DNA of 24,060 nucleotides, taken from the IMG/VR virus record IMGVR_UViG_3300046011_001657, positions 1 through 24,060 of that record, one strand, 5' to 3'. A program made the position numbers and the translations under genes. Each line of letters opens with the position of its first letter. Within the stretch, counting starts at the first letter, position 1. The notes below the pieces were generated by a model. That model searched no databases. It worked only from the letters and a program-made list of their open reading frames with translations, and was not told where the DNA came from. Below are positions 2,876 through 18,138 of the stretch, piece after piece. The DNA comes from a virus.

Positions 2876-3197
2876 ACAGTTTGAAACCTATGCCGACTAC
2901 GGCGAAGGTGTCCGCAATAACGCCAAGCGGGGGATTGAACTCAACGAGCGGAACGGCAACAAGTGCGCCACGCAGACGGGTAAAGTCCGTGCCCAGCAAC
3001 TCGCCAACGGGGAGGGGGTATCCCTTGCAACGGTTAAGCGGATGCACTCCTACCTTTCACGGGCTGAAACCTACTACGACAACGCTGACAGTTCCAGCGA
3101 CTGCGGCTACATCAGTTACCTCCTTTGGGGTGGCAAAGCGGCCCTTGGCTGGAGCAGGAATAAACTTCGGGAACTTGGCGAACTCAACGAAGGCTGA
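2850..3197 (+). CDS. Stand-alone phage head-associated accessory domain protein
   Basis: The 115-residue product contains NGNKCATQTGKVRAQQLANG (residues 35-54), then VKRMHSYLSRAETYYDNADS and a terminal ISYLLWGGKAALGWSRNKL block. I associate this domain with the ends of phage capsid-protease or portal-type proteins, where it occurs as a fused module of unknown mechanism. Here it is a separate gene between the methyltransferase operon and the terminase. The ATG at 2850 overlaps the previous gene by 26 bases. A role in head assembly or packaging is inference from family context. Confidence 0.6.
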   Translation: MPSTTPIREQFETYADYGEGVRNNAKRGIELNERNGNKCATQTGKVRAQQLANGEGVSLATVKRMHSYLSRAETYYDNADSSSDCGYISYLLWGGKAALGWSRNKLRELGELNEG

Positions 3198-3222
3198 CCC
3201 CGAAGCCCAGGTGCAGGCCCGC

Positions 3223-3363
3223 ATGGACTCGCTCATGATGGTCATCACGACCCTCTGCGACTGCATTGGTGCGGTGGAAGAATCCAACTCGCCGAACGCC
3301 TTTGCGGTCAAGATGAAGATTGTGGACAAGATTGACGAACTGATTGATAAAATAGAATACTGA
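3223..3363 (+). CDS. Small hypothetical protein upstream of terS
   Basis: A short frame of 46 residues, beginning MDSLMMVITTLCDCIGAVEE and ending IDKIDELIDKIEY, looks amphipathic and helical. Its TGA overlaps the terS ATG (TGATG), which fits translational coupling. The start is uncertain: a GTG at 3211 or a TTG at 3175 is also in frame, while the part of the frame further upstream only shadows the preceding gene. It may be a small packaging or regulatory peptide. No family was recognised. Confidence 0.5.
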   Translation: MDSLMMVITTLCDCIGAVEESNSPNAFAVKMKIVDKIDELIDKIEY

Positions 3364-3767
3364 TGCACCCAACTAGGATATTCAAGACCCCCGAAGACCT
3401 TGGAAAAGCATGGGCCGCCTTCAAGGAGGATGTGAAGGTCCAAGGCGAACAATGGAAGCGGGTGCAGTATGTCGGGAAGGACGGGTTGAAGAAGGAAGAC
3501 CCCGCCAAAGTGCCGCTGACCTTGGAGGGGTTTAAGCGGTTTTGCCGCAATAATTACGGGGATGTTCAGCAGTACTTTGACAACAAGGACGGATATTATG
3601 AGGACTTCGTGGTTATCTGCCGTGCGATTCGGGAGGAAATCCGAGAGGACCAAATCATTGGCGGCCTGCTCTCGTTCTACAACCCCTCCATCACGCAGCG
3701 GTTGAACGGTCTTGTAGAAAAACAGGAAACGAGCGTCACCATCGAGCAGCCGCTTTTTGGGGAGTAG
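3363..3767 (+). CDS. terS: Terminase small subunit (DNA-packaging gp3-like)
   Basis: This 134-residue protein resembles the small terminase subunits of the P22 gp3/Bacteroidota phage type. These recognise the packaging site as oligomeric rings and regulate the large subunit. Recognisable features are the N-terminal EDLGKAWAAFKEDVK helix, the central LTLEGFKRFCRNNYGDVQQY block, YYEDFVVICRAIREEIREDQ, and the family-typical YNPSITQRLNGLVEKQE near the C-terminus. The position a short way upstream of the large terminase gene, with only two tRNA-like genes between them, supports the call. Translation is probably coupled to the preceding small gene through TGATG. Confidence 0.8.
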   Translation: MHPTRIFKTPEDLGKAWAAFKEDVKVQGEQWKRVQYVGKDGLKKEDPAKVPLTLEGFKRFCRNNYGDVQQYFDNKDGYYEDFVVICRAIREEIREDQIIGGLLSFYNPSITQRLNGLVEKQETSVTIEQPLFGE

Positions 3768-3791: not shown

Positions 3792-3799
3792 TATCTTTG
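3792..3799 (+). promoter_or_regulatory. Putative -7 promoter element before the tRNA-like genes
   Basis: TATCTTTG is a perfect match to the Bacteroidota -7 consensus TAnnTTTG. It ends five bases before the first paired base of the tRNA-like gene at 3804, the distance expected for a start site at the mature RNA end. No convincing TTG lies about 18-20 bases upstream. Confidence 0.55.
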
Positions 3800-3803
3800 T
3801 GTC

Positions 3804-3914
3804 AGTCAGGTGGCGGAATTGGTAGACGCAGACCGTTGAAAGTTAAGTGGTCCAGAGTTGTTCGTCTGATTGCCTAAACGAGTAAACATACAGGTTCAAG
3901 TCCTGTCCTGACTA
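3804..3914 (+). tRNA. tRNA-Leu-like gene with abnormal anticodon arm and very long variable arm
   Basis: The acceptor stem AGTCAGG (3804-3810) pairs perfectly with CCTGACT (3907-3913). The D arm GCG/CGC (3813-3815, 3827-3829) encloses GAATTGGTAGA, typical of leucine tRNAs. The T arm ACAGG/CCTGT (3890-3894, 3902-3906) has the loop TTCAAGT. The anticodon region is not canonical: GACC (3831-3834) pairs with GGTC (3849-3852) around 14 bases, or a 7-bp stem GACCGTT/AGTGGTC encloses an 8-base loop. If GTTGAAA (3835-3841) is regarded as an insertion, a normal 7-base loop with anticodon TAA (Leu) would remain. The variable region is 37 bases (3853-3889) with an 8-bp hairpin TTGTTCGT/ACGAGTAA. At 111 bases it is longer than normal leucine tRNAs. 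Whether it is charged or decodes is unknown. Confidence 0.6.
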
Positions 3915-3917
3915 CAC

Positions 3918-3986
3918 GGCTATGTGGTGGAAGGCACACACGCCCCGAAATAGGGGTTTTTGCAGGTTCAAATCCTGCCATGGCCG
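3918..3986 (+). tRNA. Second tRNA-like gene (class I) with a six-base anticodon loop
   Basis: Acceptor GGCTATG (3918-3924) pairs with CATGGCC (3979-3985) with one G-T wobble. The D arm is GTG/CAC with loop GAAGGCA. The T arm GCAGG/CCTGC carries the standard loop TTCAAAT (3967-3973). The anticodon stem GCCCC (3942-3946) pairs with GGGGT (3953-3957) but leaves only six loop bases, GAAATA, with no T at the position of U33. No anticodon can be assigned with confidence. No CCA is encoded. It lies three bases after the first tRNA-like gene and 27 bases before terL, probably in the same transcript. Confidence 0.55.
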
Positions 3987-4013: not shown

Positions 4014-5192
4014 ATGATGTTCCAGTACACCACCGCCATCCGCAAAATTCGGGCGATGACCGCTCGGAAGAAGGTGATACAAGGTGGCACAAGTGCGTCC
4101 AAAACCTTCGGCATCCTTGCGGTGCTGATTGACCATGCGGCCCGCCATCCCAAGTCGGAGATTTCGGTGGTGTCCGAATCCGTCCCTCACCTACGACGGG
4201 GAGCCATCAAGGACTTCGCCAAGATTATGCAATGGACCCACCGTTGGGTTCCCGACCGCTGGAACAAGACCCTGCTCCAGTACAACTTCGCCAACGGTTC
4301 CACGATTGAGTTCTTTTCGGCCGATTCGGAAGCACGCCTCCGAGGGGCAAGGAGGCAGATACTTTACATCAACGAGGCGAACAACATCGACTTCGATTCC
4401 TACTACCAGTTGGCGATTCGTACATCGCAGGAAATCTACATTGACTTCAACCCCACCCACGAATTTTGGGCGCACACCGAGGTCCTTCCCGAAACGGATG
4501 CGGAGTTCCTTATCCTGACCTACCAAGACAACGAGGCGCTTCCCGATACTATTCGGAATGACATCGAACTGAACCGCACCAAGGCCGAAACGAGTGCCTA
4601 CTGGGCCAACTGGTGGAAGGTGTACGGCCTCGGCCAAGTCGGGACGCTCCAAGGGGCGATATACGGGGACTACACGGTGGTTGAGGGTATAGACCCATCC
4701 ACCATGAAATTCGTCGCCCTTGGGCTTGACTGGGGCTTTAGCAACGACCCCACGGCCTTGGTCGCCGTGTACCGCAGGGGTGATGACCTATTCATTCACG
4801 AACTGCTCTATCATCGGGGCTTGACCAACTCCGACATAGCAACAAGGTTGAAGGAGTTCGGGATTACAAGGGCTTGGGAGATTGTGGCCGATTCAGCAGA
4901 ACCGAAGTCCATCGAGGAAATATACCGCCTCGGATTCAACATCAAGCCCGCATCCAAGGGACCCGATTCGGTCAGGCAGGGGATAGATGTGGTCAAGCGG
5001 TTCAACCTTCATGTGACCAAGGATTCCGTGAACTTGATAAAAGAACTCCGCAGTTACACTTGGGCCACCGACAAGGACGGCAAGGACACGGGGGTCCCGA
5101 TTGATTCCTACAACCACGCCTGCGATGCTCTGCGATATGTGGCCCTTAACAAACTCGCCGTCAGTAACTCAGGGAAGTACTTGGTGGTGTAA
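4014..5192 (+). CDS. terL: Terminase large subunit (packaging ATPase and nuclease)
   Basis: This 392-residue protein is the motor that pumps DNA into the prohead and cuts concatemers. The N-terminal ATPase has a Walker A-like QGGTSASKT (residues 23-31), with SKT in place of GKS/T, and Walker B ILYINE (116-121). The C-terminal RNase H-like nuclease shows LDWGFSNDPTAL with Asp239, VADSAEPKS with Asp293, and DSYNHACDALRYV with Asp364 and Asp371. The set matches the PBSX-like Terminase_3/6 group, and the length is near the usual 400-430. The frame is open upstream through the tRNA-like gene, so I chose the ATG at 4014 (a second ATG follows directly) because it lies outside that RNA. Confidence 0.95.
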   Translation: MMFQYTTAIRKIRAMTARKKVIQGGTSASKTFGILAVLIDHAARHPKSEISVVSESVPHLRRGAIKDFAKIMQWTHRWVPDRWNKTLLQYNFANGSTIEFFSADSEARLRGARRQILYINEANNIDFDSYYQLAIRTSQEIYIDFNPTHEFWAHTEVLPETDAEFLILTYQDNEALPDTIRNDIELNRTKAETSAYWANWWKVYGLGQVGTLQGAIYGDYTVVEGIDPSTMKFVALGLDWGFSNDPTALVAVYRRGDDLFIHELLYHRGLTNSDIATRLKEFGITRAWEIVADSAEPKSIEEIYRLGFNIKPASKGPDSVRQGIDVVKRFNLHVTKDSVNLIKELRSYTWATDKDGKDTGVPIDSYNHACDALRYVALNKLAVSNSGKYLVV

Positions 5193-5429: not shown

Positions 5430-6085
5430 AACTCATCCATTACTACCACATCTATTGCGGCGGAGGCGGGCAATGGCAACTTATCATGCACCAGCACATG
5501 ATGGCCCTGTGCAACTACGGGCTGATTGAACAGTTGGACGAGATTCGTGTCGGCATCGTCGGTCCTCCTGACCAGCGGAAGTTGGTTAAGGATATCCTGG
5601 ACAACTCACTCGTCGCTTCGAAGATTAAAATAGTTGTGACCCGCACGAACGCATGGGAGCAAGCCACGCTGACCGAGATGTACCGAGCGAGCCAAACCGA
5701 GGATGCGGCCTACCTCTACGCTCACACCAAAGGATGCAGCGACCCATCGCTGGTTAAGCAGATGTGGTGCAGGTCCATGATTTTCTTCAATGTGGTCGCA
5801 TGGGAACGCTCCCTTGCGGAACTGGAGAAAGTGGATGCGGTTGGATGCCACTGGCTCACCACCGAGCAATTCCCCCAAATCGCTGACCACAACAACCCCG
5901 ACGGTTATCCTTATTTTGGCGGTAACTTTTGGTGGGCCAAGTCCAGCCATGTGCGGGAACTCGGTGAGCCAGTTCGGGAACATCGCTGGCAGGCCGAAAC
6001 TTGGATTGGGAAGCGGGAAGGCATGACCGTCTACGACCCCAACCCAGGTTGGCCCGACCCAAGTAAATTTGTCATCACATTCTAA
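5426..6085 (+). CDS. Glycosyltransferase-like protein
   Basis: This 219-residue protein resembles short bacterial and phage glycosyltransferase-like proteins. It has the N-terminal MKLIHYYHIYCGGGGQWQL, a central YLYAHTKGCS motif (about residues 96-105) and FGGNFWWAKSSHVRELGEP near residue 165. The last looks like the substrate-binding block of GT-A type enzymes in which a Trp-rich segment is followed by an Arg-Trp-x-x-E. No classical DxD was seen, so donor sugar and activity are uncertain. It is the first gene of a four-gene cassette inserted between packaging and tail genes. Modification of virion proteins or host surface glycans is the likeliest role, by inference. Confidence 0.6.
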   Translation: MKLIHYYHIYCGGGGQWQLIMHQHMMALCNYGLIEQLDEIRVGIVGPPDQRKLVKDILDNSLVASKIKIVVTRTNAWEQATLTEMYRASQTEDAAYLYAHTKGCSDPSLVKQMWCRSMIFFNVVAWERSLAELEKVDAVGCHWLTTEQFPQIADHNNPDGYPYFGGNFWWAKSSHVRELGEPVREHRWQAETWIGKREGMTVYDPNPGWPDPSKFVITF

Positions 6086-6087
6086 CC

Positions 6088-6603
6088 ATGAAGCAGAAAC
6101 CCGAAGAAATCCTCAAAGGCTTGGACTACGGCCACATCTATACAACCGATGTGACCCACATCCTTGAAATCCACAACACCGCCAAGAAACACGCAAAAGG
6201 GCGGGCCTTGGAACTCGGTAGTTACCTCGGACACTCTACCCTTGCCATTGCGATGGCGGGCCTTGAAGTCGTCGTGTACGACACCGATACCAGCGTAGAG
6301 GACAAGCGCAAAGCCCTGCTGAAGGATTACAAGGTGGAGTGGAACAACGCCCCATCCAGCGAAGCCCTCAACGAGCAGCGGTACTTTGAGTTCATCTTCC
6401 ACGATTCGGACCACGGCGACGGCATGATTCCCGAAATGGTGCGACTATTCAACGAGCGGTTGCTCAAAGGCGGCACGATGATGATTCACGATGCGGAATT
6501 ACTGACCATCCTTAACCTGTTGGGTCAGTTGGAACCACACGAACACAAGAGCAGTTGGGACGGAAGGGGACGGCAAATGCTGACCATCATCAAGAAACTA
6601 TGA
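6088..6603 (+). CDS. Class I SAM-dependent methyltransferase
   Basis: The 171-residue protein has the Rossmann-fold SAM-binding motif I ALELGSYLGHST (residues 40-51), an acidic strand end VVVYDTD (61-67), and FIFHDSDHGDGM (102-113) followed by LLKGGTMMIHD, typical of the Methyltransf_24 type. Such enzymes methylate small molecules or sugar hydroxyls rather than DNA, because no DPPY or PC motif is present. Placement between glycosyltransferase-like genes suggests O-methylation of a sugar, but this is inference. It starts two bases after the upstream stop, and its TGA overlaps the next ATG at 6600. Confidence 0.75.
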   Translation: MKQKPEEILKGLDYGHIYTTDVTHILEIHNTAKKHAKGRALELGSYLGHSTLAIAMAGLEVVVYDTDTSVEDKRKALLKDYKVEWNNAPSSEALNEQRYFEFIFHDSDHGDGMIPEMVRLFNERLLKGGTMMIHDAELLTILNLLGQLEPHEHKSSWDGRGRQMLTIIKKL

Positions 6604-10390: not shown

Positions 10391-12645
10391 GCGTAACCCT
10401 AATCGCTTACCCGCTCAACGATTCCAATGTTGAGGTCCCCTATGTGCTGGACACGATGGGCGGGACCGATATCGCAGTCACCTATTCCATTGGCGACATT
10501 GAGGATGTGACCAAGCAGCGGGGGTCTTTCAGCAAGACGATAACGCTTCCCAACACCCCGACGAATCGGGCCTGCTTTGCGTATGCGTACAACATCCAAT
10601 CCTTTGTGGGTGGATTCCAACCGAACAAGCGAATCCGTGCCGCCATGTGGGAGGACGGGGTGCAGGTATTCAGCGGGGTGCTGCAACTGCTTAGCATGAG
10701 CAAGACCAAGGGAACCGTCACCTACGAGGTGGGCTTGTTCACCGATAATGTGTCCCTGTTCAAAGCGATAGAGGGCAATATGCTGGTGAACACGGCGGGA
10801 GTGACAGGCATGAACCACACGCCCACCAGCGGTCATGTGTCGGGAACCTGGACGGCATCGGGGGCGTTGAGTAGCGGGTATGTTTACGGGGTTGTGGATG
10901 CGGCGGGGTTCAGCGATGTGCAGCAAGGTGGCTCGTTCACGGTTCCTTGGTGGAGGCTCGGACCCAGCATCTATGTCAAGAAGATGGTGGACTTGATATT
11001 CACGGAGGCGGGGTTCCGCTACTCGTCAAGTTTCTTTAATTCATCCTTGTTCAACAAGTTGGTAATGCCCTACGCAGCGGGAACGCCAACGACCAACCTA
11101 TCGGGGTCCAATCTATTTGCCCAATCCACGGGGTCCGTGTCTGCATCGCTTGCAGGTGCAGCGGTTAATCTTGAATTTAGTCGGGACAATGTAGCCCCAT
11201 ATTTTGACAACGGCGGCTATTGGGTCGCATCATCCAGCACTTTTGTTGCCCCAGCCGTCCCGACCCGTTGGAATGTGTCCATAAACTACATCGTGAGCGG
11301 CGTGACCTTTGGCGTTGACGGCGTTGCAGGTGGCGACTTTGACCTATACAACACGGCTACGAGTTCGCCTATTGCACTCGTTGGAACGGTTGACCTTACG
11401 AGTGCGAGTTACCCTTTGTCGGGCAGCGTGTTCTTCAACAATGTAACCATTCCCGCCAATGCGGTCGTAAAGTTTCGGTATAAGGAAACCGAGGGGGCCA
11501 CATCTATCACCTTCCGTTCGGGGGCAACGCTGCAGATGACCTGCCTTGAAAACCCCCAAAGCATCGGGATTATTGACATGAGGACCGCACTCCCTGCCGA
11601 TGTCAAGCAGTCGGACCTCCTGCAAGATTTGCAGAAGATGTTCAACCTCCAGTTCATGCCCGACCCCCAAGACCCGAAACTCCTATACATTGAACCTTGG
11701 AAGGACTTCTATTCCAGCGGGTCGGTGGTGGATTGGTCGCAGAAATCCGACGAGAACGCAGAGCAGAACCTCACCAACGGCGACCCCAACGCCTACACCA
11801 ACATCGTCTTCAAGTACAAGGACATGGGGGATTACCTGTCCAAGACCTACAAGCAATCCTACCCGCTGAACAGGGAAGGCTACGGAGGGCGAATCTTCAA
11901 CACATCCAACTTTTACGGCAAGGGGGATAAGGTGGTTGAAACCCTTTGCGGCACTCTTATCCCCGCATCGTTCAGCACCGACAAAATCGTGGGCCGTACT
12001 TGGGACATTGACGGAACTCTCGCAAGCGGAACCATCAAACCCCTGCAAACTGGCTACCGATTGGCGCAGTACAATGTCGTCACGGCCCCAACGCCTTGGA
12101 GATACCAATATGGGGTTACAGGAACGCTGAACACGGTCCTTGCGGTTAGCCAAACGGCCCTGCCCTTCGTGTCCCACATCGACAACCCGTACGCCCCCAG
12201 CGTGGACCTCGCCTTCGGGCAGCCAAGGTTGGTGTACTACAACGCCGTGAACGCAAGCGGCAACCCGTACGCCTACACCAACAACAACCTCTACAACACC
12301 TACTGGCTGAACTACATTAACGAAACGGTGTCCCAAGAAGCCTTGCAGTTGGAACTCACGATGCTGCTATCCTCGGTGGACATCTACCAACTTGACTTCC
12401 GCAAGCCGATCTACTACGGCGGGATCCGTTGGCGACTGCTGGAGATTCGGGACTACCTGGTCGGGCAGATGAAGCCCTGCCGAGTGACGCTCCGACGCAT
12501 CCTGAACCTGACCGACTTTGCTGCAACCACGACCACGCCGATTGCAAGCGACCCCGAATTTTTGTTCAACGGCCCGATTGACCCCGACCCTGTGGACCCA
12601 GGCTATGAACCCCCCGTAAACCCCGAACTACCCTCCGAAGGCTAA
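10387..12645 (+). CDS. Large tail-tip / baseplate-hub-like protein
   Basis: This is the largest product in the window, 752 residues. Near the N-terminus it has VTKQRGSFSKTITLPNTPTN (about residues 39-58) and NKRIRAAMWEDGVQVFSGVL, a combination I associate with tail-tip or tail-associated hub proteins of Bacteroidota phages. The centre is a beta-rich Ser/Thr/Gly segment, followed by QSDLLQDLQKMFNLQFMPDP near residue 405, and the C-terminus is acidic and proline-rich (residues about 725-752). It probably forms the hub below the tail tube and may contact the host surface. No lysozyme or peptidase motif was identified. ATGA overlap with the preceding gene indicates a joint module. Confidence 0.65.
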   Translation: MSVTLIAYPLNDSNVEVPYVLDTMGGTDIAVTYSIGDIEDVTKQRGSFSKTITLPNTPTNRACFAYAYNIQSFVGGFQPNKRIRAAMWEDGVQVFSGVLQLLSMSKTKGTVTYEVGLFTDNVSLFKAIEGNMLVNTAGVTGMNHTPTSGHVSGTWTASGALSSGYVYGVVDAAGFSDVQQGGSFTVPWWRLGPSIYVKKMVDLIFTEAGFRYSSSFFNSSLFNKLVMPYAAGTPTTNLSGSNLFAQSTGSVSASLAGAAVNLEFSRDNVAPYFDNGGYWVASSSTFVAPAVPTRWNVSINYIVSGVTFGVDGVAGGDFDLYNTATSSPIALVGTVDLTSASYPLSGSVFFNNVTIPANAVVKFRYKETEGATSITFRSGATLQMTCLENPQSIGIIDMRTALPADVKQSDLLQDLQKMFNLQFMPDPQDPKLLYIEPWKDFYSSGSVVDWSQKSDENAEQNLTNGDPNAYTNIVFKYKDMGDYLSKTYKQSYPLNREGYGGRIFNTSNFYGKGDKVVETLCGTLIPASFSTDKIVGRTWDIDGTLASGTIKPLQTGYRLAQYNVVTAPTPWRYQYGVTGTLNTVLAVSQTALPFVSHIDNPYAPSVDLAFGQPRLVYYNAVNASGNPYAYTNNNLYNTYWLNYINETVSQEALQLELTMLLSSVDIYQLDFRKPIYYGGIRWRLLEIRDYLVGQMKPCRVTLRRILNLTDFAATTTTPIASDPEFLFNGPIDPDPVDPGYEPPVNPELPSEG

Positions 12646-16983: not shown

Positions 16984-17049
16984 CGGGTTCTCATACGCCC
17001 GCATGGTTTAGTGGTCTGGGCCATCTCGCAAGGGGTGGCCCTTTTTTTT
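16984..17049 (+). ncRNA. Candidate small RNA of about 66 nt with two hairpins
   Basis: Between the TATCTTTG box and the terminator T-run lies a compact unit. It has a 6-bp hairpin TGCGGG/CCCGCA (16982-16987, 16998-17003), a single-stranded TGGTTTAGTGGTCT stretch (17003-17016), and the terminator hairpin GGGCCA/TGGCCC. The piece GGTTTAGTGG resembles a tRNA D-loop and GCGGGTTC a T-arm, but the order is not that of a tRNA. The 5' end is inferred from promoter spacing only. Confidence 0.4.
17018..17049 (+). terminator. Rho-independent terminator
   Basis: GGGCCA (17018-17023) pairs with TGGCCC (17036-17041), with a 12-base loop, followed by eight T (17042-17049). It separates the tail-tube gene and the candidate small RNA from the glycosyltransferase gene that starts 13 bases later. 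Confidence 0.85.
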
Positions 17050-17050
17050 G

Positions 17051-17058
17051 TACCTTTG
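17051..17058 (+). promoter_or_regulatory. Putative -7 promoter element of the GT4 gene
   Basis: TACCTTTG matches TAnnTTTG exactly and begins two bases after the terminator T-run. The ATG at 17062 is only three bases further, which would give a leaderless or nearly leaderless mRNA. No -33 TTG was found at the expected distance. Confidence 0.5.
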
Positions 17059-17061
17059 GGC

Positions 17062-18138
17062 ATGAGAATTTGCATCGTTTACAACGCCCACCCGACGGGG
17101 TGCTCCTTCTACCGCTTGGAGATGCCGAACGCCTACCTTGGCGACAACTTCACGGAGTTTGACTATGTGTGCGTGGACAACATCGCCAATGTCAAGGACG
17201 AGGACCTAAAGACGGTCGATGTGTGGCTTTTTAATCGCTTGTGGTGTCAAGGTACGCTGGAGCAAATTCGTAAGGTCTACGAGGCTCTGACGGCGTTTGG
17301 GGCGAAGGTAATCTTGGACCTTGACGACTACTGGGTGCTGGAGAGTGGACACATCATGTATCGGCACTACCTATCCAGCAAACTTGACGAGCAGATTCGT
17401 GAACACATCCGCCTTGCTGACCATGTGACCACGACCACGGAACACCTCGCCCAAAAGATTCGCCTGCTGAACAAAGCCGTGACCATCCTCCCAAACGAAC
17501 CCTACGAAGCCTATCAGCAGTACTTGCCCGACACGAACGCCGAACCCGAACCGCACCTGTTCAAAATCGGCTGGTTCGGAGGGGCGCAGCACCAAGAGGA
17601 CATCGCCTTGGTGGAACATTCTTTCGGCCTGCTGGCCCATGACCGTTCCCTTGACGGCCGTTACAAAATCTACCTTGGAGGGTGGAACGATGGGAACGCC
17701 GTGTACGACGATTACGAGCGGATGCTCTCCTGCCGTGGGCTGAACAAGAACTACGGACGCATCCAAGCGGCGGACATCTACTCCTATGTGGGAGGCTACA
17801 ACTTCATCAACGCCACCATCGCACCCTTGCGAGATACCAAGTTCAACAGGCTCAAATCGGAGTTGAAAGTCGTGGAAGCAGGCTGGATGGGCAAGGCGAT
17901 AATCGCATCCGAAACCATCCCCTACACCGACATTATCACCCACGGCCACAACGGTCTACTGATACCCTACGGCAAGAAAGACGCATGGTACAAGGCCGTC
18001 CGCAAGTTCGTGAACGAACCCGACTACGCTCGCTCCTTGGCCGTGCAGTTGTCCAAGGATGTACGGGAGCGCTTTGACATCAGCAAGACCGCCGAGCGGA
18101 GGGCCGAACTCTACCGAAGCATCGGGCGCAAATTGTGA
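17062..18138 (+). CDS. Glycosyltransferase family 4-like (GT-B fold)
   Basis: This 358-residue protein should transfer a nucleotide-activated sugar. The N-terminal lobe starts MRICIVYNAHPTGCSFYRLE and contains VILDLDDYW (residues 83-91). The C-terminal lobe has FKIGWFGGAQH (167-177) and the donor-binding helix LKSELKVVEAGWMGKAIIAS (264-283), with Glu267 and Glu272 in the area of the family EX7E motif, followed by HGHNGLLIP. The frame is open upstream through the terminator, but the ATG at 17062 follows a promoter-like box and gives the typical N-terminus. It stands alone among structural genes, apart from the cassette at 5426-7840. It probably decorates virion or host-surface components. Confidence 0.8.
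   Translation: MRICIVYNAHPTGCSFYRLEMPNAYLGDNFTEFDYVCVDNIANVKDEDLKTVDVWLFNRLWCQGTLEQIRKVYEALTAFGAKVILDLDDYWVLESGHIMYRHYLSSKLDEQIREHIRLADHVTTTTEHLAQKIRLLNKAVTILPNEPYEAYQQYLPDTNAEPEPHLFKIGWFGGAQHQEDIALVEHSFGLLAHDRSLDGRYKIYLGGWNDGNAVYDDYERMLSCRGLNKNYGRIQAADIYSYVGGYNFINATIAPLRDTKFNRLKSELKVVEAGWMGKAIIASETIPYTDIITHGHNGLLIPYGKKDAWYKAVRKFVNEPDYARSLAVQLSKDVRERFDISKTAERRAELYRSIGRKL

Follow-up and report, generated by a model that had tools for sequence, protein, structure and literature searches.

Two adjacent tRNA-like genes lie between terS and terL, on the same strand, in a virus record of 24,060 bases (the window, the whole stretch of DNA analysed here), and the locus raises the question of what such genes do when neither has a usable anticodon arm. 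Rfam RF00005 detected exactly two tRNA-like genes in the window, unit 1 at 3804-3914 (38.5 bits, E 5.6e-5) and unit 2 at 3918-3986 (40.6 bits, E 1.5e-5), and both exceed the gathering score of 29. An earlier sequence-only reading of this DNA had proposed a check by tRNA finders, which was positive for both units with RF00005 but only partly so with ARAGORN, which called unit 2 alone as a tRNA, with an unreadable anticodon, and did not call unit 1. There were no Rfam matches in the window to tmRNA (RF00023), YrlA (RF02553), GOLLD or ROOL. The features of the locus are as follows.

3363-3767, plus strand: terS, small terminase, the upstream neighbour (phrog_606, E 2.4e-7; Pfam GP3_package below cut-off)
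3792-3799, plus strand: TATCTTTG, a Bacteroidota-type -7 box (TAnnTTTG) that starts 12 nt upstream of unit 1, read directly; putative promoter
3804-3914, plus strand: unit 1, tRNA-like RNA with scaffold AGTCAGG/CCTGACT and discriminator A (RF00005, 38.5 bits; scaffold common to hundreds of elements)
3804-3810, plus strand: unit 1 acceptor stem, 5' strand AGTCAGG, pairing with 3907-3913 (folding)
3813-3829, plus strand: unit 1 D arm with a GCG/CGC stem, identical in sequence to cellular tRNA-Leu genes (also by fold)
3831-3852, plus strand: unit 1 remodelled anticodon-like arm, 7 bp with the 8-nt loop GAAAGTTA (MFE fold); the exchangeable core begins here
3853-3885, plus strand: unit 1 variable region, two predicted 4-bp hairpins at 3853-3868 and 3870-3885 (MFE fold only)
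3890-3906, plus strand: unit 1 T arm, ACAGG TTCAAGT CCTGT (RF00005, fold, pair variation in other elements)
3907-3914, plus strand: unit 1 acceptor 3' strand CCTGACT plus discriminator A (RF00005, fold)
3918-3986, plus strand: unit 2, tRNA-like RNA with scaffold GGCTATG/CATGGCC (RF00005, 40.6 bits; ARAGORN tRNA without a readable anticodon)
3942-3957, plus strand: unit 2 remodelled anticodon-like arm with the 6-nt loop GAAATA (folds and alleles)
3962-3978, plus strand: unit 2 T arm, GCAGG TTCAAAT CCTGC (RF00005, fold)
4014-5192, plus strand: terL, large terminase, the downstream neighbour, with an alternative start at 4017 (Pfam Terminase_3 and Terminase_3C, phrog_2)

Folding gave unit 1 an acceptor stem of 7 bp, a D stem of 3 bp and a T arm of 5 bp. 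In place of an anticodon arm it has either the 7-bp arm with an 8-nt loop or 4 bp with 14 unpaired bases, followed by a variable region of 37 nt, which confirmed what the sequence-only reading had described for the first gene. Unit 2, which has the size of a normal tRNA, folded with a 7-bp acceptor stem, a D arm and a 5-bp T arm around a middle stem of 4-5 bp (CCCC/GGGG plus G-U), and its GAAATA loop is the 6-base loop without U33 that had been reported for the second gene; other unit 2 alleles have different stems with loops of 4-6 nt. An anticodon arm of 5 bp with a 7-nt loop and U33 was absent from both units by ARAGORN, a structural scanner and folding, so neither has a usable anticodon arm. 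The more general claim, that both genes keep paired acceptor, D and T arms around a non-canonical anticodon arm, was borne out by RF00005, ARAGORN and folding. The core of unit 2 is more stable than shuffled sequences (z = -2.5), while the core of unit 1 has a z of -0.37, its internal hairpins are predicted only, and it has too few variants for a covariation test of its fold. We consider it very likely that both genes encode non-decoding RNAs with this anatomy.

The closest named relatives of the terL protein belong to Flavobacterium phages, at about 50% identity. Unit 1 would be transcribed from the TATCTTTG box, judging by its spacing; a TAnnTTTG box stands at the identical spacing before 17 of 193 non-canonical elements versus 3 of 179 canonical ones.

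We compared the locus among contigs whose terL is at least 90% identical to that of the window. They contained 24 distinct terS-terL intergenic sequences, each with 0-3 units detected by the scanner, and several close relatives had none. Across these contigs unit 1 has 12 distinct core sequences and unit 2 has 6. Two different variants of unit 2 accompany the window's unit 1, and several unit 1 alleles share one variant of unit 2; because each has multiple partners, the two units reassort. Contig pairs with flanks 85-100% identical had cores just 36-52% identical and scaffold ends up to 100% identical, a comparison that used a relaxed criterion, as a stricter one left no qualifying pair. Cores at this locus are replaced wholesale, not point-mutated. 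No ordinary tRNA was found between terS and terL in any of these relatives, and the one allele that the loose scanner flagged as canonical (an 84-nt unit 2, L098) folds otherwise. The proposed alignment of relatives across terS-terL thus gave no normal tRNA, swapped cores and kept scaffold ends. One common allele (L022, L024, L025 and L063) has kept the acceptor stem and has no T arm. Among 17 records of the window's phage group, there were never more than two tRNA-model matches per record and none in 8. We also observed that the terS genes of L062, L063, L082, L086 and L101 are about 48-52% identical to that of the window, yet their terL genes are 98-99% identical. The tRNA-like locus lies at the junction between the divergent terS alleles and the near-identical terL, and small terminase subunits seem to have been swapped there.

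Since the units are intergenic and on the same strand as their neighbours, they could be RNA-processing punctuation or a terL leader, with tRNA-like ends that cut the terS-terL transcript and a middle that drifts freely. An acceptor stem and a T arm are enough for minimal RNase P substrates. However, several close relatives do without any unit at this position, which also told against the suggestion of a pure processing signal in the sequence-only reading, one allele lacks the T arm, and the D arm and cores are conserved. In addition, most elements of large phages are located elsewhere than between terS and terL. We regard this explanation as very improbable.

Unit 1 belongs to a large class. 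Its scaffold consists of the acceptor AGUCAGG/CCUGACU, a tRNA-Leu-type D arm and a T arm, and its 3' end (T arm and acceptor) matches at least 120 viral stretches; among the matches listed, records are as long as 270 kb and carry up to nine copies each. Cellular genome bins contain 13 stretches that match this 3' end, roughly half with a Bacteroidota name, and a 735-kb phage record carries a similar element with the acceptor AGTTAAG. The scanner requires a 7-bp acceptor, a T arm, U8 and GG in the D loop; in 2.4 Mb of real DNA it detected 382 distinct elements, versus 0 in shuffled DNA. To avoid selecting on the acceptor, we drew a second sample by D-arm sequence alone, and 130 of its 189 elements had the acceptor AGTCAGG. 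The pairing rules of the scanner were satisfied by 251 of 278 D-arm matches, many of the misses being truncated or mildly mismatched copies. Elements range from 66 to 225 nt (median, 107 nt), with middles of about 20 to more than 130 nt. The cores of 481 elements formed 309 clusters with 214 singletons and a Chao1 estimate of about 733, numbers that vary with the clustering threshold. Unit 1 follows the full class plan of an AGTCAGG-type acceptor, a tRNA-Leu-type D arm, a T arm and a non-canonical core; unit 2 shares the plan but has another acceptor (GGCTATG) and another D arm. Both units keep the acceptor stem and the T arm, and unit 1 also keeps a D arm of the class II tRNA-Leu type; the middle between the D and T arms is exchangeable. 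A BLAST search of phage and plasmid records with the scaffold returned mostly ordinary tRNA gene fragments.

Several minor observations concern individual members and their surroundings. Some elements in L189, L250, L233 and L258 have a second insertion, in the D loop, besides the replaced core. A small hairpin, roughly TTGACAGCTCGGAAAGACGAGCAA, lies directly 5' of several elements (L185 on the minus strand, L160, L199, L242, L258 and L273); it occurs in 10 of 193 upstream regions versus 2 of 179 for canonical tRNAs, and it is also located after the c66 module described below where that module is free-standing. A 106-kb phage record has a match to Rfam freshwater-1 RNA, slightly below the gathering score, among scaffold elements and tRNAs (L178, 4124-4186). 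The cultured phages Tenacibaculum pT24 and Gundel_1 have tRNAs annotated as "undetermined". In pT24 (L380), two near-identical genes of this kind, at 2790-2868 and 3157-3235, have an extended region before the anticodon arm; we rejected them as class members, as they have a nominal 7-nt loop and are not of the AGTCAGG class.

These data bear on whether the units are broken or remodelled translation tRNAs, including nuclease-resistant ones. Both units pass the tRNA model and unit 2 has a normal size, as would be expected of such genes. Nevertheless, no relative has an intact tRNA at the site, acceptor and T arms are intact, the cores spread over the wide length range and the many clusters given above, and 127 of the 130 D-arm-selected AGTCAGG elements are without a canonical anticodon arm. 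Change is limited to the anticodon and variable region, and the scaffold is kept with other non-canonical middles in many relatives, in agreement with the earlier argument against random decay. Recently broken tRNAs, which the sequence-only reading had also suggested, are disfavoured by the lack of an intact counterpart. Its comparison with altered-loop tRNAs that resist anticodon nucleases while still decoding was not supported either, given that no isoacceptor is readable, the locus has no normal tRNA in relatives, the middles differ so much in length and some of them occur without the scaffold. A translational origin of this kind is hardly credible.

Modules were found on other acceptors and outside the scaffold. 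The core c66, of about 100 nt, lies inside a scaffold with acceptor GGTTGGG (L479) and inside one with AGTCAGG (L522), and it is free-standing at L223 7204-7325, L207 4787-4901 (minus strand), L589 1514-1630 and L489 11222-11340 (L489/L373). Its outer helix has compensatory double changes at 6 of 6 pairs around a strongly conserved interior, with the conserved sequence ACGCACGGCARCCGAA...TTAGGCAATGC...TACCTCAC.GTGCGTAGGTAA. There was no credible Rfam match to c66, which may be a separate, new RNA family. Two scaffolds contain core c83, and in L171 this core has its own long stem. The complete scaffolds of L393 and L199 contain core c250, as does the allele at the window's locus that lacks a T arm, and a core shared by L245 and L275 was found on the acceptor AGTGCAG in the public phage record MW202828. 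The strongest reason to regard the middle as a functional module and the tRNA as its carrier is that modules occur on other acceptors and outside the scaffold. Known RNA families were absent from the cores of the stretches tested against Rfam, even at permissive E-values, and no single motif common to all cores rose above shuffles.

Within the D-arm-selected set, all 7 acceptor pairs and 4 of the 5 T pairs were seen as alternative Watson-Crick pairs; since the scanner demands pairing, this result shows that the bases vary while pairing persists and does not give an unbiased rate of pairing. Groups of related cores have compensated stems, for example, GTTGAA/TTCAAC versus GAGCAA/TTGCTC, and the c105 group shows double-sided changes at 20 pairs across several acceptors. 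Because compensatory changes occur in both scaffold and cores, we infer that selection acts on the RNA. The average stability of the cores (mean z, -0.44) is in slight excess of that of control windows (-0.14, p 0.009), and the internal fold of unit 1 therefore stays a prediction.

Selection on the RNA argues against the possibility that the units are selfish cassettes, which spread by recombination or homing without benefit to the phage. Their presence/absence polymorphism and reassortment at the locus would fit such cassettes, as would an HNH endonuclease gene (Pfam HNH_3) that occupies the terS-terL site instead of the units in L044 (1979-2584). However, neither an endonuclease nor any other recurrent gene is linked in 128 multi-element loci, where the search for a partner protein found no recurrent neighbour family apart from small groups of 2-4 and the terminases in the window's own group. 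We judge selfish cassettes to be improbable.

The scaffold resembles tRNA-Leu. Its D arm, GGTGGCGGAATTGGTAGACGC and close variants, is also found in cellular tRNA-Leu genes, and 376 of 433 elements have A as the discriminator, while the acceptor AGUCAGG was not found in the cellular tRNA-Leu genes examined. The use of a tRNA-Leu type may reflect the tolerance of class II tRNA frames for long inserts. Bacterial LeuRS does not require the anticodon, and leucylation of the scaffold is therefore a putative property.

A further alternative is that the units are uncuttable tRNA decoys, which bind and occupy tRNA-targeting defence nucleases, lack the part that is cut and have cores whose sequence matters little. 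Septu and retron-Eco7 cut the variable loop of tRNA-Tyr, and OLD cuts the anticodon arm (PMC13096335). The existence of such defences keeps this explanation alive, as the parts replaced in the units are those that known defences cut while the acceptor, D and T arms are kept. Against it, sequence conservation and compensated stems are found within the cores themselves, which also occur without the scaffold, and closer mimicry of a single host tRNA would be expected from a decoy. A non-decoding decoy, as the sequence-only reading had also proposed, is possible, though we think it unlikely.

We somewhat favor a tRNA chassis that carries an exchangeable module acting in trans. In its full form, the proposal is that phages whose hosts are mostly of the Bacteroidota type carry many hundreds of distinct RNA effector modules on a chassis derived from tRNA-Leu, which the tRNA enzymes of the host mature and possibly charge. 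The modules would be swapped between phages that are unrelated and would be directed against functions or defences of the host; we offer this proposal tentatively. The likeness to tRNA suggests that host tRNA enzymes would mature the RNA ends, and the tRNA elbow and fold would confer stability. The common allele that does without a T arm is not what a strict model of tRNA maturation would predict. Modules would pass between phages by recombination within the constant ends, as the observed allele pattern suggests, and the independence of the modules from the scaffold points to action in trans, with a host or a rival as the target. Given rapid turnover, the multi-copy arrays of large phages and the absence of a linked partner gene, our guess at the purpose is counter-defence or host takeover; counter-defence in particular is a conceivable purpose that we would not yet call probable. 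We rejected rRNA antisense or mimicry, because in a genome from the same genus as a Flavobacterium bin the 16S and 23S loci had no more matches to core k-mers than to those of shuffled cores.

The elements share features with several known systems. Like phage tRNAs, especially class II tRNA-Leu (RF00005), they have the acceptor stem, T arm, U8, D-loop GG, tRNA-Leu D arm and, mostly, discriminator A. Unlike phage tRNA-Leu, they have no anticodon arm, a middle of 20 to more than 130 nt is replaced as a module, and the acceptor is AGUCAGG. As in tmRNA, two ends form a tRNA-like domain and a non-tRNA insert replaces the anticodon arm, but the elements are far smaller, have hundreds of different inserts and a full D arm, include no tmRNA match in the window and presumably lack the G3-U70 alanine signal of tmRNA. 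YrlA (bacterial Y RNA-like), an RNA of phages or bacteria, combines mimicry of tRNA with a further domain. This combination is common to both, although the window has no YrlA match; one large phage with elements, L258, has a match below threshold. A phage-encoded tmRNA and this YrlA-like match (5724-6218 and 11258-11367) lie in one array with tRNAs and scaffold elements. Engineered tRNA scaffolds for RNA expression carry an RNA insert at the anticodon arm; the elements, in contrast, are natural and phage encoded, with many inserts and, in some, further D-loop insertions. GOLLD and ROOL are structured phage RNAs of unknown function near tRNA islands (PMC12286853), but each is one family of hundreds of nucleotides, whereas the elements have about 70-225 nt, the frame of a tRNA and cores of many unrelated kinds. 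The tRNAs with which phages counter PARIS, Septu and retron-Eco7 have the tRNA shape with changes in the anticodon or variable region, as the elements do, but they are decoding isoacceptors (PMC13096335) and the elements have no anticodon. The nearest kinds are tmRNA and YrlA, for tRNA mimicry with an insert, and GOLLD and ROOL, as structured RNAs near tRNA islands.

The class of anticodon-less tRNA-scaffold phage RNAs is apparently undescribed: we found no description in Rfam 15, where the elements are labelled only as tRNA, or in the open PMC literature, and a published account may exist in subscription papers or preprints, which were outside this scope. Because annotation pipelines label the elements as tRNAs that are odd or undetermined, a large class of phage RNAs may be overlooked, and tRNA gene counts in environmental phages should not be equated with translation aids. 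If the modules are effectors, they would be an RNA counterpart to the protein anti-defence repertoire: one interchangeable carrier would bear hundreds of testable devices, and tRNA-scaffold engineering would have a precedent in nature.

Elsewhere in the window, a methyltransferase-domain protein (Methyltransf_24) is encoded at 6088-6603, in what is a small phage, and a group 1 glycosyltransferase at 17011-18138; several proteins neighbouring these genes had no Pfam match. Near the end of the record, the protein encoded at 22577-23467 matches the catalytic domain of alpha-L-arabinofuranosidase B and is perhaps a tail or surface-binding protein.
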